24,761 nt of DNA, from positions 1 to 24,761 of the IMG/VR virus record IMGVR_UViG_3300032240_002236. The stretch is one strand, 5' to 3'. Both the position numbers and the translations under genes were made by a program. The notes under the pieces were generated by a model, which saw nothing but the letters and a program-made list of their open reading frames with translations, searched no databases and was not told the DNA's origin. Position 1 is the first letter of the stretch, and every line of letters begins with the position of its first letter. Of this stretch, positions 3,073 to 20,624 are shown in pieces. The DNA comes from a virus.

Positions 3073-4605
3073 ATGCCAATTAGCACAAGCAGCAACGCAG
3101 TAGTATTACCTGGTGTTGATACAACACTTCAAACAAATATGAACGTAGCAATTAACACAAATACAACTGTGTTATCATTACTATCTGGTTCTGCAACAGC
3201 AACTGGTGTTAACTCAACAATTACAGCAATTACTGGAGTTTCAACAAACATTGGTAATTTACCAAATTATGAACCACTTCCAACATTTGGTGTTTGGTCA
3301 AATTATCAGAACAACCCAGGATATCAAATTTACGATAATGATATGCAGCCAATTATGGGTGGATATCAATCTACCAATACAGAAATTGGTCAGCGTTGGA
3401 CAGGTCCTAACTATACAACTGGTAACATTGGTGGTAACTCACAGACAACTAACTGGGTAGGAGCAACTTGCTTTACTCAACAAGAAGGAAATCAATTATT
3501 AAACCTTCCAGGACAATATTCAATGGGTGGAGACGGAATTTACGGACGCAGCCCAGATTATGTTTCTGGTGCATGGGGAAGATTTGGTCTTGTTCAAGGA
3601 AACACTGGAATTAGACAAAAAATGTCCCTTTATTTTTCAGATGGAAATATTGGTATTTATCCAAAGGGTGGAACTTCACCTATTGAACAAATTAACATTA
3701 ACTCAACAACATATTCCACTTGGTTTGGTGGAAATGCTTATGCACAAATTGCATACAACCAAAGAACAAAGACACTTATGGCTCTTGAGTCAAAAGATAC
3801 AGCAAACAACTACAGACTTCATATTTGGAAGAACATTAATAGAGATTTAAACGATTCTCAATTTTCTGTAGGAACACTTCACCTTTATTTGTCTGAAGCA
3901 AAGACATCTGGAGCAACTCCAGCAGCAATTGCTTCAAATGTTTATTATGCATACAATGATTTTGCATGGCAGGCTAACAACTCTCAAAACTATACAGAAT
4001 CAAGATATCGTTCACGTATTATTGCTGCTGATAATGGTGTTTGTGCGATTGTTCGTCACGTAAATGGTAATGGTGTTTACATGGCACAATTTACTCCAAA
4101 CCTTTCAACATTAACTGGAACTCTAAACACATCATTTAACTCAGCGGGAGCAACAAATGGTTCTGCTGGGTGGGATTCAGATCCTAGATACGGTATTAGA
4201 TCAAATATTTCATGGGATAATCAATGGGCATGTATTTATGCACCATATTATGCTTATGGCTCAGGTATGACTGGTTATTTTGTTAACACAGCAGATCCTT
4301 CAAAGTATTTTACATATAACTTTACATCTACAACACACGGAGGTCAATTGGTACCGTTCCGTCAAGGAAAGTTTGTGTTTAATGATAATCAGCAAAACTC
4401 TGATGGTAACGTAGGTGCAAGACTTTGGGTTATTGACGTAGAAGGATATGCATTAAACGGAAGATATTACAATCAGGCTGCAATTACAAATGGTTCAGCA
4501 ATTGGACTTACAGATACACAGGTGTTTACATATCAGTTTGATACAAGATATACATCTACAAATTATCCAACACTATTTTCACCAGATATCTGGACAAACG
4601 GGTAG
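3073..4605 (+). CDS. Tail fibre / receptor-binding protein 2 (paralogue of the gene at 816)
   Basis: A 510-aa protein, collinear over its whole length with fibre 1: helical Thr/Asn-rich N-terminus (LPGVDTTLQTNMNVAINTN), then NYTtGNIGGN, RQKMSLYF, SKDTANNYRLHIW, QNYTESRYR, the PYYAYGSGM region, WVIDVEGY and FDTRYTSTNY at the end. The conserved landmarks are separated by strongly diverged loops, as expected for receptor-binding duplicates under different selection. The Shine-Dalgarno is AGGAGAT, about 6 nt before the ATG. A small accessory gene follows 7 nt after the stop. The two fibres may act together or recognise different hosts; the sequence does not settle this. Confidence 0.75.
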   Translation: MPISTSSNAVVLPGVDTTLQTNMNVAINTNTTVLSLLSGSATATGVNSTITAITGVSTNIGNLPNYEPLPTFGVWSNYQNNPGYQIYDNDMQPIMGGYQSTNTEIGQRWTGPNYTTGNIGGNSQTTNWVGATCFTQQEGNQLLNLPGQYSMGGDGIYGRSPDYVSGAWGRFGLVQGNTGIRQKMSLYFSDGNIGIYPKGGTSPIEQININSTTYSTWFGGNAYAQIAYNQRTKTLMALESKDTANNYRLHIWKNINRDLNDSQFSVGTLHLYLSEAKTSGATPAAIASNVYYAYNDFAWQANNSQNYTESRYRSRIIAADNGVCAIVRHVNGNGVYMAQFTPNLSTLTGTLNTSFNSAGATNGSAGWDSDPRYGIRSNISWDNQWACIYAPYYAYGSGMTGYFVNTADPSKYFTYNFTSTTHGGQLVPFRQGKFVFNDNQQNSDGNVGARLWVIDVEGYALNGRYYNQAAITNGSAIGLTDTQVFTYQFDTRYTSTNYPTLFSPDIWTNG

Positions 4606-4612
4606 GTAATCA

Positions 4613-4921
4613 ATGTACTATGCTACTATTAAGGATGCAAAAGTAGATAAGTTTGGAAGACTGGATGATATATTTCCAGGAGTTTCCTTTCCCGTCACTG
4701 GCCCAAATGACGATTATTTAAAAGAACATGGTATTGAAGAAGTTTTTCAAATGATTGAGCATGATGAAAAGAAACAATTTGTTGTTTATTGTGATCCATA
4801 TATTAAAGATAACAAAGTTTACTGCGTTGAAGCGGTAGATATGACAAAAGAAGAGTTAGCAGCATACAAGTCTGCAATCAAAGAAGAAAAGGCTTTATCT
4901 GGGGGTAACGATGCTAAGTAA
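4613..4921 (+). CDS. Small charged fibre-accessory protein
   Basis: A 102-aa protein that is charged and soluble-looking, with a helical C-terminus (DMTKEELAAYKSAIKEEKA) ending GGNDAK. No family is assigned. It occupies the same place behind fibre 2 as the 103-aa gene behind fibre 1, but the two sequences do not align convincingly. The helical Lys/Glu-rich end resembles small fibre-assembly helpers in general character only. Its last 11 nt overlap the start of the next gene, so the two are probably translationally coupled. Confidence 0.6.
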   Translation: MYYATIKDAKVDKFGRLDDIFPGVSFPVTGPNDDYLKEHGIEEVFQMIEHDEKKQFVVYCDPYIKDNKVYCVEAVDMTKEELAAYKSAIKEEKALSGGNDAK

Positions 4922-5630
4922 TCAAAGATCTATCTTTAAGCGTTTTAGATATACTCAAATTGGTTTACAAACATGGATTTCAGCAGATGCTATTGCTACA
5001 ATTACCGCAAATGCATCAAACTTAGTTTCTCAATGGAAAGATAGAACTATAAATGTTCGTCACTTTGTTCAAACTGTAGATGCAAATAAACCAACATTTG
5101 TATCATCAGCAATTAACTCTTTGCCAGCAATTAGATTTAATGGCACAACATCATTCTTAAACTTTTCAGACACAACCCTTTCATGGTTAAATAATTCATC
5201 ATTTACAATTTTTTATGTTGCTTCAAAAACAGCAGGTGCTTCAAATCAATACGTAATTGGCGGAACAGCAACAGGAACAAGAAACAATTTATCTGCTGGA
5301 TACGTATCTACTAATACATACCGCTTTGGTATGGAAGGCGATAATTTAAGCACAGTCGTTCCAGTAGTAACATCAGGAAGACCAGAACTTTATGCAATGA
5401 CATACAGTATTGCAGATAACTCTCGTGTTATTAGAAGAAATGGAACTGTAGTAGGTTTAGGTGCATCAGGTGGTTCATTAAACTCTATGACAGCACAAGC
5501 ACTTGGAAGATATCTTTCAACATTTGGTCAATTTGATCTTGGCGAACTTTTAATTTATAACCGTGTTTTATCTGCATATGAAATTACACAAGTAGAGCGT
5601 GATCTACTTTCAAAATGGTCAATTACTTAA
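4911..5630 (+). CDS. LamG/concanavalin-like lectin-domain tail protein
   Basis: A 239-aa protein that is essentially one laminin-G/concanavalin A-like jelly-roll domain. Diagnostic pieces in order are: LQTWISAD near residue 20; VSQWKDRT; a Pro-Thr-F segment followed by PAIRFNGTTSFLNF; the strand SFTIFYVASK; VIRRNGTVVG; and the C-terminal LGELLIYNRVLSAYEI followed by a helix ending LLSKWSIT. These domains commonly bind glycans, and stand-alone copies occur among phage tail-tip genes. The ATG at 4911 overlaps the previous gene by 11 nt, with GGGGGTAAC just upstream. A carbohydrate-binding adhesion role is inferred from the fold; the ligand is unknown. Confidence 0.75.
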   Translation: MLSNQRSIFKRFRYTQIGLQTWISADAIATITANASNLVSQWKDRTINVRHFVQTVDANKPTFVSSAINSLPAIRFNGTTSFLNFSDTTLSWLNNSSFTIFYVASKTAGASNQYVIGGTATGTRNNLSAGYVSTNTYRFGMEGDNLSTVVPVVTSGRPELYAMTYSIADNSRVIRRNGTVVGLGASGGSLNSMTAQALGRYLSTFGQFDLGELLIYNRVLSAYEITQVERDLLSKWSIT

Positions 5631-5642
5631 GGGGGCTAACAA

Positions 5643-5972
5643 ATGGCGTATTCACCATCAAGATTTGCTGGTCCTGTAGCAATTCCATCAGTACCAACTA
5701 ATTTAGTTACTTTTACACAGCCTGCAATTGTTAAGCAAATAATGATAACAAATGTAACAGGCGGTACTCTTAATTTTTCTTTTTATCTAATACCTTCTGG
5801 CGGTCAAGTTGGAGATAACTCAAATAAGTTATACGGAGATTACCCTATTCAAGGTAATGCAGTATTGCCATTTAATCTTTCTCTAGTTGTTGGAGCGGGA
5901 GAATCAATTTATGCCGTCGCTAATGTCCCTAATGCTCTTAATGTAGTCATTAGTGGAGTTACGGCAGCATGA
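5643..5972 (+). CDS. Short beta-rich virion protein (paralogue of the gene at 478)
   Basis: A 109-aa all-beta protein: KQIMITNVTGGTLNFSFYLI, then VVGAGESIYAVAN, then VISGVTAA at the end. The order of strands and the AGESI...SGV signature match the 105-aa protein at 478-795. The Shine-Dalgarno is AAGGGGGCTAAC, about 5 nt before the ATG. The gene ends TGA-TAA immediately before the ATG of the large PASTA protein. It is probably a minor virion component such as a decoration or tail-tip subunit; the position of attachment is unknown. Confidence 0.7.
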   Translation: MAYSPSRFAGPVAIPSVPTNLVTFTQPAIVKQIMITNVTGGTLNFSFYLIPSGGQVGDNSNKLYGDYPIQGNAVLPFNLSLVVGAGESIYAVANVPNALNVVISGVTAA

Positions 5973-5975
5973 TAA

Positions 5976-8222
5976 ATGACATATCCAAATTCTGATCCAT
6001 CAAACATTGCTAATTATTCAACTGGTCTTTCAAATTATAATCCGCTTCTTTTAGAACTACAACAAACAATAACTAACTATAATACTTATGTTAATTTAAA
6101 AGCAACTACATCTGATGTAAACCAAAAAGCAATTATTCAACAACTTATTGATATTTTGTTGCATCAAATAGCAACATTACAAAATACAATTGGATTAATT
6201 AATAATACTAAAGTTATAGATGTAGATGATAACGCTGTTGTTCAAAATATAGTTAAGCGTGTCAATAATATAGGAACAGAAGTTACAATAGATGAATCTC
6301 AACCAGCACCATTATCAATTGTTAGTTACATAAATAATGATCAAGTATTTTTTCCACCAACATCTTATCGTCCAAAAACAACTGCAGATACAACCTATTA
6401 TTTAAATCCTGTTGCAGTTGCAACAACAAATAATCTTGAAATTAAAGTTACCTGGCTTGATATTCCAGATACTTCTTACTATAAAGTTCAAGTAACAGAT
6501 TCAAATAAAAGAACAACAAACGTAGTTGGAACATCTCCAACATATGTAACAGTTACAGCATCTGGAGAAACTAAAGTTACTGTTTCTGCATACAATTATT
6601 TAAATGCAATAATTGCAGCACAATCAACAGTTGTACAAGCAGTTTCTGGTGCAGTTACAGTTCCAAATGTAGTTGGTTTTAGTTATAATGCAGCAACTGC
6701 TGCACTTGCACAAGTAGGTTTATTGGCAAGACTTGGAAATTCAAGTTCTTCAACATCTAGTGTATATTCTGCATACAATAGTGCAGGTGGTTATGTTGCT
6801 TCTCAATTTCCAGCAGCGGGACTTTATCAAAGTGCAACTTCAGTACTTTTAGATACTATTATTTATTCATCAGGAGTAACTCAAGTTACAGTACCAAATA
6901 TTGTTGGATTAACCCTTACTGCTGCATCAACAGCATTATCAAATGCAGGTTTAGTATTTGGAACAAGAACTGCAGTTGACACAAGTAATTCATCCAGTGA
7001 TCAACAAGTAATAACACAATCAGTTAGTTCTGGAAGTTCTGTAACTTCAGGAACAGTTGTAAATTGTACTTATTATAATTATGTAAGTGCTACGCCAACA
7101 CCCACTCCAACACCCACTCCAACACCTGGCGGTGGAGGACAATCTTATCCAAATATTGGTTCAGTAATTGCTTATGGTGCAGGTGCAAATCAAGCATGGA
7201 CAACAGATCAAGCATATATTACTTGGGGCGGTAGCGGTTGGGGTTCTTATACAGTTGTTGCATCTAATGGGGCATCTAACAATAGTTCATCTTCAGGCGG
7301 TGGACCACCAGTATTACTTTCAGGTTTTTCTGCAGGACAAACATATGGCGTAACTGTAACTTTATTTGCAGATGCAAACTACGGTCAACCTTCTGCTTCA
7401 TCTTCTACAAGTTTTACAACTGCTGCTGCATCAAGCGGTGGAGGAGGCGGTGGAGGCGGTGGAGGAACAACACCCACACCTACAACATGTACTGCATATG
7501 CTTTAAAAACTAGAGGTTCTTGTTCTTATAATCCAATATTTGCTTCTTGTGTAGAATACAACACTTATTATAATCCTGATTGCACAACTTATCAAGACTT
7601 TGCAGCATGTTCAGGATGTACAACTCCAACTACCCCAACTTATCCAACTTTACTTTCGGGATATCACTATTGTGCTTCAGGAGATGCTCCAAATCCATCA
7701 AGTCCTTGTCCATCAGATGGTAGTGGTACAGGAGTTAATTGTTTAAATGGTGGAGCATCTGGAGCAACATGTAGTCCTGGTGGTGGAACCCCAACTCCCA
7801 CAACATATTATTGGTGTTGTTGTAACCCATTTAGTGGAAATTATAATGATCAAACTACAACCACAAATTCTAATCCATGTCAGTATTCAAGCAGTTCAAC
7901 AAGTGGAACATGTTCAAGCAACATACCAACTTCATGTAGAGGTCTTACCCCAAGTCCTACGCCATCATATCCCGCTTTACTTTCAGGATATCATTCTTGT
8001 ACGCCCTCTGATGTTTCAAATCCTGTAAGTCCTTGTGGCACACCAGGTACTTGTATAAATAATGGTGCATCTGGAGGATCATGTGGAAGTACTCCTACGC
8101 CAAATCCAACCCCATCAACTGGCAATAGAACTTGCACACCAGCGGATTATGCAAATCCAAATAATCCATGTTATTGTTCAAATTGTTGTTACACGCCATC
8201 AGGAACTGGCGGTGCCTGTTGA
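5976..8222 (+). CDS. Mosaic virion protein: coiled coil, FN3-like, two PASTA domains, Pro/Gly linkers, Cys-rich tail
   Basis: A 748-aa protein. Residues about 20-105 are a Gln/Leu/Ile-rich coiled coil. Residues about 130-222 look like a fibronectin-III domain (IKVTWLDIPDTSYYKVQV). Two PASTA repeats follow, opening VPNVVGFSYNAATAALAQVG (about 228) and VPNIVGLTLTAASTALSNAG (about 305). A (TP)n linker spans about 375-385, a second FN3-like domain about 390-485, and ten glycines 488-497. The remaining 250 residues hold 26 cysteines in repeated modules. PASTA domains in bacterial kinases and PBPs bind peptidoglycan muropeptides or beta-lactams, so cell-wall contact is a reasonable inference. No secretion signal or catalytic domain is visible. 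There is no clear Shine-Dalgarno; the ATG lies 3 nt after the previous stop, suggesting coupling. Confidence 0.8.
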   Translation: MTYPNSDPSNIANYSTGLSNYNPLLLELQQTITNYNTYVNLKATTSDVNQKAIIQQLIDILLHQIATLQNTIGLINNTKVIDVDDNAVVQNIVKRVNNIGTEVTIDESQPAPLSIVSYINNDQVFFPPTSYRPKTTADTTYYLNPVAVATTNNLEIKVTWLDIPDTSYYKVQVTDSNKRTTNVVGTSPTYVTVTASGETKVTVSAYNYLNAIIAAQSTVVQAVSGAVTVPNVVGFSYNAATAALAQVGLLARLGNSSSSTSSVYSAYNSAGGYVASQFPAAGLYQSATSVLLDTIIYSSGVTQVTVPNIVGLTLTAASTALSNAGLVFGTRTAVDTSNSSSDQQVITQSVSSGSSVTSGTVVNCTYYNYVSATPTPTPTPTPTPGGGGQSYPNIGSVIAYGAGANQAWTTDQAYITWGGSGWGSYTVVASNGASNNSSSSGGGPPVLLSGFSAGQTYGVTVTLFADANYGQPSASSSTSFTTAAASSGGGGGGGGGGTTPTPTTCTAYALKTRGSCSYNPIFASCVEYNTYYNPDCTTYQDFAACSGCTTPTTPTYPTLLSGYHYCASGDAPNPSSPCPSDGSGTGVNCLNGGASGATCSPGGGTPTPTTYYWCCCNPFSGNYNDQTTTTNSNPCQYSSSSTSGTCSSNIPTSCRGLTPSPTPSYPALLSGYHSCTPSDVSNPVSPCGTPGTCINNGASGGSCGSTPTPNPTPSTGNRTCTPADYANPNNPCYCSNCCYTPSGTGGAC
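7095..7118 (+). repeat. Two exact 12-bp repeats encoding Pro-Thr linker
   Basis: CCAACACCCACT occurs twice in tandem, followed by a partial third copy. It encodes the (Thr-Pro)n hinge between the second PASTA repeat and the following beta domain. Such in-frame 12-bp repeats can change hinge length by slippage without breaking the frame. Confidence 0.75.
7437..7466 (+). repeat. Ten-glycine codon tract
   Basis: Ten consecutive GGN codons (a mix of GGT, GGA and GGC) encode a flexible hinge just before the Cys-rich region of the 748-aa protein. It is a purine-rich low-complexity tract. Confidence 0.85.
7641..8219 (+). repeat. Three degenerate Cys-rich modules in the C-terminus of the mosaic protein
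   Basis: Module A (7641-7772, residues 556-599) begins YPTLLSGYHYC and ends NGGASGATC. Module B (7968-8084, residues 665-703) begins YPALLSGYHSC and ends NNGASGGSC. A shorter module C (about 8133-8219, residues 720-748) begins with CTPADYANPNNPC. The shared core is C-x-x-x-D-x-x-NP-x-x-PC, later followed by C-x-NGASG-x-x-C. Conserved Cys spacing suggests disulfide or metal cross-links. Between A and B is a WCCC segment that does not fit the repeat. Confidence 0.75.
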
Positions 8223-8253: not shown

Positions 8254-8616
8254 ATGTTAAATATGCAAGATATATATTATCCAGAACAAAATATTAAACA
8301 AAATGTAAAACCAAATATAGATACTTGGTGTCCATGTGCATTTATAATTGATGAAACTGTTGTAGAAGCAGGAATATATTCAAAGTATTTTTTATATTTA
8401 GTTAATAATTCATTTGTTGAAGAAATTTCACAAAATGAAATTACTGAAGAATCAAAATTAAGGTTTTATTCTAACGAATTTGAAGATGAATTTGTAGTTG
8501 TAAGCAAAAAAATAGCAGCCATACTTTTAAGTAATTCAAAATTTGTTGAAATTAATATTCAAGATTCTTGGGTTGTAAATGGTACAAAATATGAAAATGA
8601 AAGGTTTATACAGTAA
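8254..8616 (+). CDS. Protein of unknown function
   Basis: A 120-aa acidic protein with no family I can name. A CPC motif lies near residue 26 in DTWCPCAFIIDE, followed by a mixed beta segment (YFLYLVNNSFVEEIS). The last third is alpha/beta (KKIAAILLSNSKFVEI). It has no signal peptide or membrane segment. The ATG has no Shine-Dalgarno and sits 6 nt after a TACAAT, so it is probably translated from a leaderless message. Its TAA overlaps the next ATG (TAATG), coupling it to the zinc-ribbon gene and, 1 nt beyond that, the oxygenase. That linkage suggests one function for the three genes, not a virion component, but this is inference. Confidence 0.6.
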   Translation: MLNMQDIYYPEQNIKQNVKPNIDTWCPCAFIIDETVVEAGIYSKYFLYLVNNSFVEEISQNEITEESKLRFYSNEFEDEFVVVSKKIAAILLSNSKFVEINIQDSWVVNGTKYENERFIQ

Positions 8617-8861
8617 TGTCTGAAGAAAAAAAGTCAAGATGGCAGGAATACCTAGAAACACAAAAAGGTGCAGTAAAACCTTGGGATCTAGTTAATCCAA
8701 ATTCAGAATGGGCAAGTGAAGAAGAAGCAAACAGAAGGTATGAAATTTGCAAAGGTTGCCCAGAATTAATGAAAATGACTAAAACTTGTAAAAAATGTGG
8801 TTGTTTTATGAAGGCTAAAACTAAACTTGAAAAAGCAACCTGCCCGTTGGAAAAGTGGTAA
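8616..8861 (+). CDS. Small Cys-rich zinc-ribbon-like protein
   Basis: An 81-aa protein. The N-terminal half is charged and helical. The C-terminal half has six cysteines: C45 and C48 (CKGC), C58, C61 and C63 (CKKCGC) and C76 in ATCPLEKW. Two CxxC pairs and the trailing CP suggest a zinc-ribbon-like fold. Small phage proteins with a C-x-x-CPEL, then CKKCGC-FM-x-x-K, then A-x-CP-x-x-KW pattern are familiar to me from cyanophages and other marine or freshwater phages, where the function is unknown. It starts on the overlapping TAATG and lies 1 nt before the 2OG oxygenase. Metal binding is likely; the biochemical role is unassigned. Confidence 0.7.
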   Translation: MSEEKKSRWQEYLETQKGAVKPWDLVNPNSEWASEEEANRRYEICKGCPELMKMTKTCKKCGCFMKAKTKLEKATCPLEKW

Positions 8862-8862
8862 T

Positions 8863-9459
8863 ATGAAAAAACATGAGTTAGCACCAGGCATATTTTTGTA
8901 TCTTGATGTTTTAGAAGATCCTGCATCAATGATTGAAGAAATTGAACAAGCAGCAGAAATGAGAATTTTAGACTGGGTACCAGCAACAGTAAAAACTGGT
9001 GAAGAAAATGGTGAAAATAAATCAGTTAGAGATACAAGTATTATAACTGTACCCTACGCTGGAAAAATAATTGATGGAGCAAATAATCCAACAAATGAAA
9101 TTTTAAATGAAATTCAAAATATATTTTTTGAAGGGTTTTCCAAAATAGAAGAAGATTATAAAAGTAACTACGGTATTTTTACAGAAACACATGAAGGCTA
9201 TGGAATATTAAAATATGGTAAAGGTCAACATTTTAAAAATCATATTGATGATCACCCATCTTTTCCAAGAACAGTATCTACAGTTTATTATATGAATGAT
9301 GGGTATAAGGGCGGGGAAATTGAATTTCCAAGATTTAACATAAGAGTTGCTCCTCAAGCAAACCAAATGATTGTTTTCCCATCTAACTACATGTACAACC
9401 ATTCAGTAAATCCAGTAACTGAAGGAACTAGGTACGCAGTAGTCAGTTGGCTTAAGTGA
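8863..9459 (+). CDS. 2-oxoglutarate/Fe(II)-dependent oxygenase (prolyl 4-hydroxylase-like)
   Basis: A 198-aa protein with the full double-stranded beta-helix signature. The iron-binding HxD is H127-I-D129 in HFKNHIDDHP. The distal histidine is H180 in MYNHSV. The 2-oxoglutarate-binding arginine is R190 in EGTRYAVVSW. Between them are VSTVYYMNDGYKGGEIEFP and a Pro-x-x-x-x-x-IVFPS turn, both typical of the P4H/PiuC-like branch. Family members couple O2 and 2-oxoglutarate to hydroxylation of a protein or small substrate. The ATG at 8863 is chosen because it lies 1 nt after the previous stop; an in-frame ATG at 8827 would lie inside the upstream gene. The substrate is unknown; the neighbouring Pro-rich virion protein is one candidate. 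Confidence 0.85.
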   Translation: MKKHELAPGIFLYLDVLEDPASMIEEIEQAAEMRILDWVPATVKTGEENGENKSVRDTSIITVPYAGKIIDGANNPTNEILNEIQNIFFEGFSKIEEDYKSNYGIFTETHEGYGILKYGKGQHFKNHIDDHPSFPRTVSTVYYMNDGYKGGEIEFPRFNIRVAPQANQMIVFPSNYMYNHSVNPVTEGTRYAVVSWLK

Positions 9460-9472: not shown

Positions 9473-11287
9473 ATGCCATATAAAAATAGAGTACTATCTG
9501 ACCTTCCAGAGGGTTACTGGAGATTTAACAATCAATTAATGACTGATTATACAACTCATGGCAACAATGCTGTTTTGACTGGCACACCGTCATTAGATGT
9601 TTCGCTAGTATCATCTTCATATTCTGATTTTCCAAATATATCATCAATTAAATTAACATCTTCAGAAAACATTTTTATAAACAATACATACGATGTATTT
9701 ATTGAGGGGACAGAAAGAAAAACATTTGGGATAGAGTTTTGGATTCAAATGAAATCTACACCATCTTCACAAACGGATATTTTAACAATTAAAAGAAACT
9801 CTACGGTTATTGGTAAAATATATGCCAATGCAGACTGTATTTCTTTTCAAATAAACGGTGTAGAAAACTTAATCCCAGTCTCATATATGGCTTCAAAACA
9901 AGTAAACTCTTGGTCAACAAGAATGCATGTATTTGCTTGCTATAAAGATGGCTCATTAGATGTGTCTGTAAACTCTGTTTCTTCTGACCCAAAATCCGTG
10001 CCCTCATATTTTGATTTTGCTACAGCAAACAATTTATCAACTAATTTTTTAATAGGACACACATCTGGATCAGATTACCTTATCAGCGACCTAGCCTTTT
10101 ATTCTAAAAAACTATCAGTTAATGAAATTAGATCGCATATGTTTTGGGGAAGCAAAGACAGTGACCCATTACATTATGTAAAACAAGGCAGTGCATACCA
10201 TTTTGATGCAAAAAATATAGATTCTATGTTTATATCTAAAAAGAAATTTTCAATTTCATCAGAGTTTGATCTAGGCTTTTATAATGGATTAATTTCTGAC
10301 GGTTCAGGTTTAACTCTTCCTACCACCACTGCAGCAGCAACTGGCTACGGTTCTTGGATATATGATTTTCCAATTACGCAGTTTGAAAATTTTGCGGGAG
10401 TAGATATTTCTTGGCAAACAGGTTCACCAGAATCATCTGTATCAAACTTTAAATATGTTCGTGTACTAGCCTCATATGATGGAGGGTACACTTATATACC
10501 AGTTGAGAACAATAAGGGCTTACAGGGCTTCCTATACACCGCATCTACCCTTTCCTCATCTAACCTGCAAATTAAAGTTGAAATATACTCACCAGATACA
10601 TCTGCATTAATTCAACCAAGAATAGATAATCTATTTATTGGGCTTTACAAATCAATTGACATTCCTTCAGATGGTGGGGCATTTTCAATTACCCCAGGAG
10701 TTAATCAAACATACTCTATTAAAATAGATGATTACCCACTTATTAATTCATCTAAAAATGTAGGCATTGCTTTTTCTAAACAGACATCTATTGGAAATCC
10801 AGGATATGCATCAGTTCAAAATCCCAATTCAGTTACTTATCGCTCAGTAGAATTTTGGTTTAAATATGATGCAGCAGCAGCATCTAAAGTTATTGATGGT
10901 TTAACCATGAACAGTTCAGGCCTTATAACTCCTTCGGGATGCTCACTATATGTAAATGGAGTTTCTGTGGCTACAGCAACACTATTGCCTAATGTAAAAT
11001 ACCACATTTTAGTTGTATATAGTGCAAACAAAACATCATCGCTAAACATAAACGGTGATTCATCTGGAACCTATACCCCACTATCCGCTACATATGGATT
11101 CTTTACTTTGTATCCCGCAACGCTAACTTTAAGCCAAATTCAAGATCGTTATCTATCTTATCTTTCAGTATCATCTTCAACGGTAAATGATTCGGTAACT
11201 TCATTAGGATCATTATTGGAGTATACTGGTACTAGTTCACAAATAAATGGCGGTCAGCCAGTCGCTTATAACGAACGAGTTATATAA
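9473..11287 (+). CDS. Large LamG-domain tail protein
   Basis: A 604-aa beta-rich protein with two concanavalin/LamG-like segments. The first (residues about 10-225) has PEGYWRFNN, a FGIEFWIQMKS strand and SDLAFYSKKLSVNEIRSHM at the end, the typical closing strand-helix. The second (about 455-570) has VEFWFKYDAA, LYVNGVSVATATLLPN and ATLTLSQIQDRYLSYLS. Between them is a beta region with ASYDGGYTYIPVE. Such proteins usually bind sugars at the tail tip or on side fibres. The gene has its own leaderless-type promoter, so it is controlled apart from the fibre block. Its ATG lies 13 nt after the oxygenase stop. The ligand is unknown. Confidence 0.75.
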   Translation: MPYKNRVLSDLPEGYWRFNNQLMTDYTTHGNNAVLTGTPSLDVSLVSSSYSDFPNISSIKLTSSENIFINNTYDVFIEGTERKTFGIEFWIQMKSTPSSQTDILTIKRNSTVIGKIYANADCISFQINGVENLIPVSYMASKQVNSWSTRMHVFACYKDGSLDVSVNSVSSDPKSVPSYFDFATANNLSTNFLIGHTSGSDYLISDLAFYSKKLSVNEIRSHMFWGSKDSDPLHYVKQGSAYHFDAKNIDSMFISKKKFSISSEFDLGFYNGLISDGSGLTLPTTTAAATGYGSWIYDFPITQFENFAGVDISWQTGSPESSVSNFKYVRVLASYDGGYTYIPVENNKGLQGFLYTASTLSSSNLQIKVEIYSPDTSALIQPRIDNLFIGLYKSIDIPSDGGAFSITPGVNQTYSIKIDDYPLINSSKNVGIAFSKQTSIGNPGYASVQNPNSVTYRSVEFWFKYDAAAASKVIDGLTMNSSGLITPSGCSLYVNGVSVATATLLPNVKYHILVVYSANKTSSLNINGDSSGTYTPLSATYGFFTLYPATLTLSQIQDRYLSYLSVSSSTVNDSVTSLGSLLEYTGTSSQINGGQPVAYNERVI

Positions 11288-11347: not shown

Positions 11348-11686
11348 ATGGGAAAAATGAAAATAACTCCAGTTGAAGAAGTTAATTGGGGAATGTATAT
11401 GTGGCAAATGCCAGACGAGTCGTTAGTTATGGATGAAGAAGGTGGGTATTTAAGTATCCAGTCCGTAAAAGGAGATATCCGTCAGATCAAAAAGTTAAAA
11501 GACGCTGCGAAGCACTTTGGACTAAATGAAGGAAAGCCAATATTTTTCTCTGGTCATCGTCCAGTAACAGATGATGAACTTGCAGAACAACGCTCAAGAT
11601 TAGATTTAGGTCTGGTTCCAGACCCACAAGATTTACCAGCAATGATGGAATATGCTAAAGAAATGCGGGAGTTGAAACTAGGATAA
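11348..11686 (+). CDS. Small protein of unknown function, coupled to the portal gene
   Basis: A 112-aa soluble alpha/beta protein with a Trp/Met-rich start (VEEVNWGMYMWQMPDESLVM). It continues with YLSIQSVKGDIRQIKKLKDA and ends with a Glu/Arg-rich helix (MMEYAKEMRELKLG). There are no catalytic or membrane motifs, and I cannot name the family. The start has no Shine-Dalgarno and is 7 nt after a -10-like element. The stop overlaps the portal ATG (TAATG at 11684-11688), so equal synthesis with the portal is likely. Its position before the portal is where terminase genes often end, but it does not resemble a terminase subunit. A packaging or portal-associated role is speculative. Confidence 0.65.
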   Translation: MGKMKITPVEEVNWGMYMWQMPDESLVMDEEGGYLSIQSVKGDIRQIKKLKDAAKHFGLNEGKPIFFSGHRPVTDDELAEQRSRLDLGLVPDPQDLPAMMEYAKEMRELKLG

Positions 11687-13272
11687 TGGATCACAACGTA
11701 ACAATCATCAATGATGATAATGAAGATAATGAAGTTCAAGTAAGATCAAACGCTGATTTTGGCATTGGTGCTAATGTACAAGAAACATTTGACGACCCAT
11801 TTGCTAAAAGTTGGGACGAGATTAGAAAATCAGAAGGTCTAAATGCAAACTTTAGACGTAATGCAACAAGACTTGAAAAATCATTTACTGGCAAAGATGA
11901 TGCAAAATCTAAGAAATTAGATCCGCTAGACCTTACAGGATATTCATTATTTCAGATTGTTCAGCCCCCATTTAATATGCTTTACCTTTCACAACTATAT
12001 GATGTATCTCCATATCATCACTCAGCAGTAAATGCTAAGGTAGCAAACGTAGTTGGCCTTGGATATAAATTTGAAGAAACATTTAAAGTAACACAAAAAG
12101 TTCAAGACGTAATTGATGAGCCAAAAAAACTTGATAAGTTGCGTACAAAGATTGAAGCAGCAAAAGTAGAATTTCGTGAATTTCTTGAATCTTTAAACTC
12201 AGATGATTCATTTATTGAAAATATGAAAAAGGTTTACACAGATCTTGAAGCAACAGGAAACGCTTATTTAGAAGTAGGTCGCACAGCCACAGGCAAAATA
12301 GGCTACCTAGGACATATTCCAGCAACAACTATGCGTATTCGTCGTCACCGTGATGGCTTTGTACAAGTTGTTTATAACCGTTATACTTTCTTTAGAAACT
12401 TTGGAGATATAGAAACTCCAGATCAAATTGGCACAGATCCACAGCCAAACGAAGTAATTCACTTTAAAAAGTTTACTCCATCAAACACCTATTATGGTGT
12501 TCCAGATATTTTATCTGCAAAGAACGCAGTTGCTGGAGATGAGTTTGCACAAAGATTTAACCTTGACTACTTTGAAAACAAAGCGGTTCCTCGTTACATT
12601 ATTACTGTAAAGGGTGCTAAGTTAACTGCTGATTCTGAGCGTAAGTTACTTGAGTTCTTTCAAACTGGTCTTCGTGGTCGTAACCATAGAACACTTTACA
12701 TTCCACTTCCATCAGACGGAGAGGCTTCTCGTGTTGAATTTAATATGGAGCCAATTGAAGCGGGAGTACAAGACTCCTCATTTAAAAACTATGCGGTAGA
12801 AAATAGAGATCGTATCCTTATTGCTCATAGAGTTCCTATTTCAAAAATTGGTATGCCTGCAGACGTATCTTTGGCAAACGCTAAAGATGCGGATAAAACA
12901 TTTAAAGAGCAAGTATGTCGTCCCATGCAAGAAGAACTTGAGTATAAACTTAACAAGATTATGGCTGAATTTACAGATGCTTTTCATCTAAGATTTAACG
13001 AACTATCACTTACAGATGAAGAAACTCAATCAAGAATTGATGCTGCTTACCTTGTAAACAAGGTGGTTCTTCCAAATGAAGTCCGTTCTCGTATGGGTCG
13101 TGCACCGATTGAAGGCGGAGACGTAGCCTTAGAATTAAAACCACAGGATGCTGCAGAAAAAATTACTGATGGTAAAGGCACTAGAAGTCGGGATCAAGAA
13201 AGAACAGTCAATACATCCGATAAAAGCAATACGGCTAGAAACCCTCAAGGTGAAGGTCGAAAGCAAAAATAA
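11686..13272 (+). CDS. Portal protein (HK97/PBSX-like)
   Basis: A 528-aa protein, the usual size for a dodecameric portal, the ring through which DNA enters and leaves the head. The block near residues 85-125 (FQIVQPPFNMLYLSQLYD, then HHSAVNAKVANVVGLGY) matches the crown/clip entry of PBSX-type portals. Near 300 the pattern NKAVPRYIITVKGAKL, then FFQTGLRG and the TLYIPLP strand, is also typical. The helix RILIAHRVPISKIGM follows. The last 50 residues are charged and disordered-looking. It is coupled to the preceding gene through TAATG and precedes the protease, scaffold and capsid genes in the classical order. Confidence in family is high, in subfamily moderate. Confidence 0.88.
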   Translation: MDHNVTIINDDNEDNEVQVRSNADFGIGANVQETFDDPFAKSWDEIRKSEGLNANFRRNATRLEKSFTGKDDAKSKKLDPLDLTGYSLFQIVQPPFNMLYLSQLYDVSPYHHSAVNAKVANVVGLGYKFEETFKVTQKVQDVIDEPKKLDKLRTKIEAAKVEFREFLESLNSDDSFIENMKKVYTDLEATGNAYLEVGRTATGKIGYLGHIPATTMRIRRHRDGFVQVVYNRYTFFRNFGDIETPDQIGTDPQPNEVIHFKKFTPSNTYYGVPDILSAKNAVAGDEFAQRFNLDYFENKAVPRYIITVKGAKLTADSERKLLEFFQTGLRGRNHRTLYIPLPSDGEASRVEFNMEPIEAGVQDSSFKNYAVENRDRILIAHRVPISKIGMPADVSLANAKDADKTFKEQVCRPMQEELEYKLNKIMAEFTDAFHLRFNELSLTDEETQSRIDAAYLVNKVVLPNEVRSRMGRAPIEGGDVALELKPQDAAEKITDGKGTRSRDQERTVNTSDKSNTARNPQGEGRKQK

Positions 13273-19880: not shown

Positions 19881-19910
19881 ATACAACTTAATAAAAAACT
19901 GAATATTGTT

Positions 19911-19946
19911 AAGCCCTCCAAGAAATTGGAGGGTCTTAACTTTTTT
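19911..19946 (+). terminator. Intrinsic terminator after the tail-tube gene
   Basis: CCCTCCAA pairs with TTGGAGGG around a GAAA tetraloop (GNRA class). AAG and CTT extend the stem past a one-base bulge. A run of six T (19941-19946) follows after AAC. This is a convincing intrinsic terminator. Confidence 0.85.
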
Positions 19947-19965
19947 ATGTATAAGCGTAATTTAT

Positions 19966-19974
19966 TGGTATAAT
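19966..19974 (+). promoter_or_regulatory. Extended -10 TGGTATAAT of the chaperone/tape-measure operon
   Basis: A perfect TATAAT with TGG extension lies 20 nt after the terminator T run. Transcription would begin near 19981, with a leader of about 18 nt that carries AGGAGG (19988-19993) before the TTG start at 19999. No clear -35 is present. Confidence 0.6.
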
Positions 19975-19998
19975 TTAAGAGACAAACAGGAGGACATC

Positions 19999-20334
19999 TT
20001 GGCAACAACAGTATATGAAATTGTAGAAATCGAATTATCAAATGGGGAAACTATTACAATTAGACCCCTACCTATTAAGCAACTTAGAAAGTTTATGGAG
20101 TTAATTAACTCAATGCAGAACGTTGACGTTGAATCAGATTCAGACGCAATGGAAATTTTTATCAAGGCTGCAATGGTTTGCCTTGAAACATTTAAGCCAG
20201 AATTGGCAAAAGATAAGGACAAGTTTGAAGAACTTATTGAAGTTCCAACAATGATGAAGATTCTTGAAATCGCTGGCGGATTAAAATTGTCAGACCCAAA
20301 CCTTCTGGGAGCGGCACTAGTTGGGACGAACTAG
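19999..20334 (+). CDS. Tail assembly chaperone, 0-frame product (G-like)
   Basis: A 111-aa protein from a TTG start at 19999, fixed by AGGAGG at 19988-19993 with a 5-nt spacer. Upstream in-frame codons lie within the terminator and promoter, so they are not coding. The sequence is VYEIVEIELSNGETITIRPL, then KQLRKFMELINSM and an acidic helical end (FKPELAKDKDKFEELIE). Proteins of this kind bind the tape measure protein and are not kept in the mature tail. A slippery heptamer in the last 40 nt sends a fraction of ribosomes into the next frame, giving the longer fusion. It precedes the tape measure gene, as in nearly all long-tailed siphoviruses. Confidence 0.85.
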   Translation: MATTVYEIVEIELSNGETITIRPLPIKQLRKFMELINSMQNVDVESDSDAMEIFIKAAMVCLETFKPELAKDKDKFEELIEVPTMMKILEIAGGLKLSDPNLLGAALVGTN

Positions 20335-20624
20335 ACCTACGCTCCTTGGAGTCCGAAATATTTTTGACTGGTCATTGGAAAAACTTTGACGAGTTAGAAA
20401 CAAATCTTTCTTTACCAGAACTACTTGCTTTACTTGAATCATCAAGAAAACAAATAGAAGATGAAAGAAGATTTCTTGCAGCAATACAGGGTGTTGATTT
20501 AGACGAAGATAAATCATCATCTGAAGAGGAGCATCGAGACATCGTTGGCCTACATGGTTTCCAAGCCTTTAATGAAGGATTTGGAATTAACGCTGGTATT
20601 GGTGTGTTGGAATTGGGGGAGTGA
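20268..20624 (+). CDS. Tail assembly chaperone, -1 frame extension (GT-like fusion)
   Basis: The -1 frame is open from 20268 to the TGA at 20622-20624. After slippage at 20295-20301 the fused protein would be about 208 aa: 101 residues of the first frame followed by 107 from this frame, beginning at position 20301. The extension starts PSGSGTSWDELDLRSLESEI and continues FLTGHWKNFDELETNLSLPE, a pattern I recognise from the second chaperone frame of actinophages. It then has a charged helix (SSRKQIEDERRFLAAIQG) and a Gly-rich end. A TTG at 20346 could serve as an independent start but has no Shine-Dalgarno, so frameshifting is the better explanation. Confidence 0.85.
   Translation, partial: NRWRIKIVRPKPSGSGTSWDELDLRSLESEIFLTGHWKNFDELETNLSLPELLALLESSRKQIEDERRFLAAIQGVDLDEDKSSSEEEHRDIVGLHGFQAFNEGFGINAGIGVLELGE
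20295..20345 (+). promoter_or_regulatory. Programmed -1 ribosomal frameshift signal
   Basis: The heptamer CCCAAAC (20295-20301) is read C CCA AAC in the first frame, a perfect X XXY YYZ site. After a 6-nt spacer, GGAGCG (20308-20313) pairs with CGCTCC (20340-20345). This encloses a second stem, CTAGTT (20317-20322) with AACTAG (20329-20334). The inner stem contains the first-frame stop codon TAG (20332-20334). Spacing and direction both fit a -1 shift. Confidence 0.85.

Follow-up and report, generated by a model that had tools for sequence, protein, structure and literature searches.

The 24,761-nucleotide window analysed here, a 24.8-kb virus record that represents a fragment, carries an intact, ATG-initiated gene on the + strand (5976-8222; slot X) whose 748-residue product joins an FN3-like domain and two PASTA domains to a cysteine-rich C-terminal end. 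PASTA domains usually reside in bacterial cell-wall sensors. We favor, with modest confidence, the reading that the slot X protein is a virion-surface fiber (adhesin) of a siphovirus-like actinophage, in which the PASTA pair serves as the stem and the Cys-rich end as a variable tip. The gene and the parts of its product are as follows.

5976-8222, + strand: slot X, a putative PASTA-bearing virion fiber/adhesin gene, 748 aa (intact ORF; gene order and orthologues in other viral contigs).
5976-6380, + strand: N-terminal part, residues 1-135, weakly conserved (19-25% identity to two full-length orthologues).
6411-6641, + strand: FN3-like β domain, approximately residues 146-222 (AlphaFold2 strands; Foldseek FN3 matches).
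6654-6866, + strand: PASTA 1, residues 227-297 (Pfam; AlphaFold2 model; invariant residues in seven relatives).
6885-7082, + strand: PASTA 2, residues 304-369 (Pfam E 2.1e-12; most conserved segment, 45-59%).
7086-7139, + strand: Pro-Thr/Gly linker, residues 371-388 (sequence).
7149-7421, + strand: possible second FN3-like stretch, residues 392-482 (sequence only).
7437-7466, + strand: ten-glycine run, residues 488-497 (sequence).
7488-8219, + strand: Cys-rich C-terminal tip, 26 Cys in 244 residues (sequence; C-x11-C motif three times).

Pfam, NCBIfam, a profile search of the PDB and structure prediction agree that both repeats are PASTA domains, as the first-pass annotation had proposed from their VPN(V/I)VG openings, which we find at residues 229-234 (VPNVVG) and 306-311 (VPNIVG). 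Pfam PF03793 matches the 748-residue protein over two stretches with 49.8 bits (E 3.4e-13; cut-off 23.2). In a six-frame search, PASTA 2 (window 6885-7064) scores 42 bits at 2.1e-12, and PASTA 1 (6654-6821; 1.8e-6) exceeds the cut-off only together with its neighbor, at 23.7 bits versus 23.2. Residues 221-365 align to the PASTA part, and only that part, of the NCBIfam PknB_PASTA_kin model (1.3e-13), a match that falls far under the cut-off of this whole-kinase model, as expected of a fragment, while a four-orthologue profile retrieves M. tuberculosis PknB from the PDB at 3.4e-9. A domain search and a structure prediction were among the checks that the first-pass annotation had put forward; both repeats pass the Pfam cut-off in the former, and the latter recovers the PASTA fold. 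Our AlphaFold2 model of residues 130-377, computed from seven sequences, has a mean pLDDT of 84.5 and a pTM of 0.46, so that the single domains are reliable and their mutual placement is not. The best 12 Foldseek matches of this model in the PDB are all PASTA-bearing chains (E 3.9e-6 to 9.5e-4), belonging to PknB, PrkC/Stk1, PBP1 or PBP2x, and the domain preceding the pair superposes on FN3 folds with ~2.2-3 Å rmsd.

The phage repeats therefore resemble the PF03793 domains of M. tuberculosis PknB and S. aureus PrkC/Stk1, their best PDB matches, in above-cut-off sequence, in fold and in tandem layout. They differ from them in the absence of a kinase, a transpeptidase or a membrane anchor, in the location of the gene within a phage structural operon, in a Tyr-rich segment inserted into PASTA 1 (Y..Y...GGYV), which includes a short helix, and in being nearly uncharged, with 2-5 K/R/D/E per ~140 residues in the PASTA pairs of four orthologues versus 17% in a PknB PASTA stretch.

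Outside the PASTA pair, the Pro-Thr and poly-Gly hinges described earlier are present, and the count of 26 cysteines at the C-terminal end is exact: all lie within residues 505-748, and the 27th, C364 of PASTA 2, is the single cysteine in the preceding 504 residues. Within the tip, a C-x11-C spacing with a D..NP..PC core occurs three times (566-578, 675-687 and 720-732), and a viral-contig scan with this tip returned no relative. More than one FN3-like domain had been anticipated; the one ahead of the PASTA pair is supported by Foldseek, whereas the second (~392-482) has no Pfam match and is confirmed by none of the tools used.

The genes that place slot X within a phage structural region, and that bear on the affiliation of the phage, are listed below.

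4911-5630, + strand: 239-aa virion structural protein encoded next door and conserved as a partner ahead of slot X (PHROG 10356 'virion structural protein', 2.6e-12; alignment).
5643-5972, + strand: conserved 109-aa partner with an MxYxPxRFAGP start; a similar start also heads a collagen-like fiber protein in other relatives.
8878-9459, + strand: 2OG-Fe(II) oxygenase (Pfam PF13640, 6.2e-18).
9473-11287, + strand: LamG-type protein encoded before the portal gene and corresponding to gp20 of Streptomyces phage Sham (Pfam 5.6e-9; tblastn 21% to the Sham region; Sham map).
11686-13272, + strand: portal protein (PHROG 12; ~55% to Streptomyces phage portals).
14769-15890, + strand: major capsid protein (56% to Streptomyces phage Sham).
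20629-24761, + strand: tape measure protein, continuing past the window end (PHROG 10030, 3.5e-98; Streptomyces phages best among the matches listed).

The slot X block is followed by portal, protease, capsid and tape measure genes, and homologues of these four lie in the same order in the Stanwilliamsviridae, a family of Streptomyces phages (Sham, Blueeyedbeauty and others) with 55-56% portal and capsid identity. Sham also carries a LamG-type protein ahead of its portal; unlike the window, it has neither PASTA nor such a fiber block before the portal. A whiB gene is present in 9 of the 11 relatives longer than 89 kb and in Sham, compared with one match, in Corynebacterium, among 14 control genomes, and would not be expected in a 24.8-kb fragment such as the window. 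This gene has been described as a mark of freshwater actinophages (PMC10202952, PMC6802176). The host is therefore probably actinobacterial, given whiB in the larger relatives and the fact that capsid, portal and tape measure are nearest to those of Streptomyces phages, and a PknB-type PASTA as nearest solved relative fits such a host. We read the low G+C, the contig numbers of relatives and the literature as pointing to a probable freshwater habitat. A cyanobacterial host, raised by a 78% capsid match in a metagenome-assembled genome (MAG) titled uncultured cyanobacterium, was rejected as a probable mis-binning, since the only whiB match of that MAG is on contig 31, which seems to be the phage contig. 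The contig with the matching capsid (CAINGU010000031.1) is a ~110 kb phage contig.

Comparison with other viral contigs shows that the content of slot X is exchanged within a conserved gene order. The series 4613-4921, 4911-5630, 5643-5972, slot X, a small ORF and the DUF6171-like gene (8616-8861) is kept, in whole or in part, in L003, L009, L027 and others. Slot X encodes PASTA with a Cys tip in the window, L003 and L027; PASTA with a Hint tip in L009, L100 and L151; a PASTA-FN3-FN3-PASTA-PASTA protein without a special tip in L153 and its relatives; FN3 with a Cys tip and no PASTA match in L019, whose 5' end is open; a Cys-ended protein without PASTA in L022; and, in L104-L130, a collagen-like fiber with PHROG tail-fiber matches whose start resembles the 5643-5972 protein. 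Among orthologues, identity to the window protein is as low as 19-25% in the N-terminal part and 33-37% in the FN3-like domain (L003 and L009), and rises to 41-42% in PASTA 1 and 45-59% in PASTA 2, making the PASTA pair the best-conserved part; identity figures for the tips represent forced alignments of unrelated, low-complexity ends. Judged from these sequences, PASTA behaves as one stem module among several that virion adhesins interchange. A diversity-generating retroelement as the source of the tip variation was considered and set aside, as no reverse transcriptase was found in the 15 relatives searched, some of them fragments.

These relatives came to light in viral contigs when the PASTA region and the partner genes were searched as alignments; the whole window protein as a single query found none. 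Among 50,697 phage records, tblastn with the whole window protein or with its PASTA pair gave no significant match, and neither did an L174 PASTA query. With a PknB PASTA as query, the phage records yielded nothing beyond weak matches, at E 0.08 or worse, to unannotated entries of 2.7-18.8 kb that are possibly host DNA, and the 19 matches of an L153 query fall, among those listed, on the FN3 stretch or mainly outside the PASTA domains.

PASTA proteins in these phages are not confined to slot X. At E ≤ 0.001, PASTA was detected in 54 viral records, the window included and some with two PASTA proteins, a number that is not a prevalence, as the records were fetched partly by PASTA- or tip-derived queries and include near-identical contigs; among 50 records fetched by capsid alone, many of them too short to span slot X, PASTA was found in three. 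A second, shorter PASTA family, with a Cys-rich or Hint-like C-terminal tip, is encoded further upstream (L174, L176, L179, L184, L196 and L197), and relatives of one of its members were found at 56 loci. In genome G082, the gene of this family adjoins L203:5259-6746, a gene whose product resembles, at its N-terminus, the N-terminal domain of the major tropism determinant (Pfam 3.7e-8). Genome G076 encodes a 955-residue PASTA protein with a Cys tip (L205:4063-6930; L211) past its tape measure and minor tail genes; the tip of this protein, GGYAGIYNSCGVFVGCND, is similar to the tip of the second PASTA protein encoded in G076, GGYAALYNNCGQFLGCDD. This resemblance suggests that the Cys-rich mini-tip may be a portable tip module. 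In both G076 proteins (L174:1252-1974 and L205:4063-6930) the mini-tip has the form Y-N-x-C-G-x-F-x-G-C, and L003:2833-4533 ends in a comparable YDNCNKFIGC.

The C-terminal Hint tips of L009:1413-3620, L100:9067-11778 and L151:7842-9683 are intein-like. The best Foldseek match of an L009 tip model is a bacterial intein-like domain (E 1e-8, TM 0.80 on target), and the L009 sequence contains GGGC, TWEH and HN, corresponding to the Cys1, TxxH and C-terminal HN of Hint domains; Pfam scores of the relatives' Hint tips are under cut-off. Since Cys1 and HN are present and no splicing nucleophile follows the Asn, cleavage rather than splicing would be expected. One Hint-like tip family is carried on PASTA stems in ~21 of the 49 contigs tested and on FN3 or collagen-like stems in others. 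A widespread Hint-like tip of L176, L184 and L216-L271, borne by PASTA, FN3 or collagen-like stems, has Ser in place of Cys1 and HD or YD in place of HN (..SVGVSTLV...CEPYDMFFT..LTHDS).

In the stem-and-tip fiber that we favor, the N-terminal part, together with the upstream 4911-5630 and 5643-5972 proteins, would provide attachment to the particle, and the FN3-like domain and PASTA pair would form an extended stem to which the Pro-Thr and Gly linkers add length. The Cys-rich tip, probably disulphide-stabilized outside the cell, would contact the host surface. PASTA would have been acquired as a stem module and is swapped with stems of the FN3 and collagen-like kinds; its descent from wall-sensing proteins of the host may confer a weak affinity for the actinobacterial wall, as a secondary property. 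A stem is the simplest reading because PASTA is swapped with FN3 and collagen-like stems both in slot X and under one tip family.

A possible, although doubtful, alternative is that the PASTA pair itself binds stem peptides or nascent uncross-linked wall and thereby holds the virion at host growth zones. In its favor are the conservation of PASTA 2, which a mere spacer would not demand, and the repeated use of PASTA in several virion gene slots of actinophages, which could equally mean selected wall binding. The nearest solved relatives are the PASTA domains of PknB, a kinase of an actinobacterium; PknB PASTA binds muropeptides and places the kinase at the septum and the poles (PMC3145798), and the PASTA domains of S. 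aureus PBP1 attach to the cell wall despite lacking the predicted Arg/Glu (PMC9426605). For PonA2 PASTA, in contrast, interaction with muropeptides was not significant (PMC6151718). PASTA-peptidoglycan affinity, taken as established in the first-pass annotation, thus holds for PknB and PBP1 and is not general. The occupation of slot X, or of the position beneath the same tip, by FN3 and collagen-like stems also argues against docking, and the near-absence of charge in the phage pairs may speak weakly against a recognition of the DAP type, as known from kinases. Because the Arg/Glu predictor already fails for PBP1 (PMC9426605), we dropped residue-based inference of wall binding.

The location of the gene raises a different question. 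The block had been described as a tail-fiber block, a placement that the gene order does not demonstrate, as it lies upstream of the portal gene and not past the tape measure; slot X is thus not downstream of the tape measure among the tail genes, where a tail-fiber or receptor-binding gene would be sought. Its position upstream of the portal makes a head fiber as possible as a tail fiber. The corresponding alternative, which we consider unlikely, is that the portal-side block encodes capsid-borne decoration fibers that loosely stick particles to cells or surfaces, with the tail receptor-binding proteins encoded after the tape measure; it is compatible with either role of the PASTA pair. The presence of slot X upstream of the portal, protease and capsid genes, the further large tail-type genes after the tape measure in genome G005, and the filing of PHROG 10356, the match of the 4911-5630 protein, under head and packaging are consistent with it. 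Against it, the G076 PASTA protein with a Cys tip is encoded after the tape measure, and the slot proteins of relatives match tail-fiber or minor-tail PHROGs, partly via collagen or FN3 repeats.

A more elaborate, and improbable, scheme is two-step adsorption, in which PASTA stems would dock on newly made, uncross-linked wall at the growth zones of actinobacteria, whereupon the tip would capture the surface by thiol chemistry, through disulphides for the Cys-rich tip and a (thio)ester for the Hint tip of relatives. Least probable of all is a secreted or lysis-stage protein outside the virion that mimics host PASTA receptors and disturbs PknB signaling or wall synthesis, for although PASTA is a host receptor module, we saw by eye no signal peptide or membrane segment in the 748-residue sequence, PASTA alone reaches its Pfam cut-off there with no kinase or transpeptidase domain, and the gene sits within a co-directional structural block with LamG-like and fiber-like genes.

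The favored stem-and-tip fiber resembles modular phage tail fibers built on FN3, Ig-like or collagen-like stems in its stem and variable tip, its repeat linkers and its inter-phage exchange; it differs from them in that the stem unit is PASTA and the C-terminal tip is Cys-rich or Hint. PASTA in phages is already known to databases, as a viral structure library names a 'PASTA_pknB domain containing protein' of the same fold in uncultured Caudovirales phages (UniProt A0A6J5NDH4, A0A6J5KNS9, A0A6J5NCK4 and A0A6J5NY54), proteins known by their database names only. We found no published description of phage PASTA proteins or their tip types in the open-licence literature, and an architecture in which Cys and Hint tips alternate seems not to have been described. 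Phages probably of freshwater actinobacteria would assemble virion adhesins from the host's own wall-sensing module, in combination with FN3, collagen-like, Cys-rich and Hint units. Should the PASTA pair bind the wall, adsorption would be coupled to the places where the wall grows, and these modules would serve as ready probes of newly made actinobacterial peptidoglycan; otherwise they would be a clear case of a stem-only PASTA, bearing on the long-standing question of PASTA function.

Several further observations concern the genes around slot X. The small DUF6171 protein at 8616-8861 (Pfam 3e-6) has several cysteines, and a DUF6171 gene also lies two genes past slot X in L003, L019, L022 and L027. 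The 2OG-Fe(II) oxygenase (8878-9459), encoded after the Pro-rich fiber gene, is a possible modifier of that fiber, and the gene that follows the Pro-rich fiber in L009 (L009:3630-4649) encodes a PF11397 GlcNAc-transferase. The PF11397 family modifies hydroxyproline in Dictyostelium Skp1. One idea is that Pro-rich fiber linkers may be hydroxylated and glycosylated by the adjoining oxygenase or GlcNAc-transferase. Two similar-looking ~500-residue proteins (816-2312 and 3073-4605) have no family match in Pfam or PHROG and have counterparts in the fiber block of L003 and G005. Immediately before the tape measure gene, a pair of ORFs that occupy different frames (19906-20624) match in position the tail assembly chaperone pair of Sham, which is annotated there as a two-piece (frameshifted) gene.
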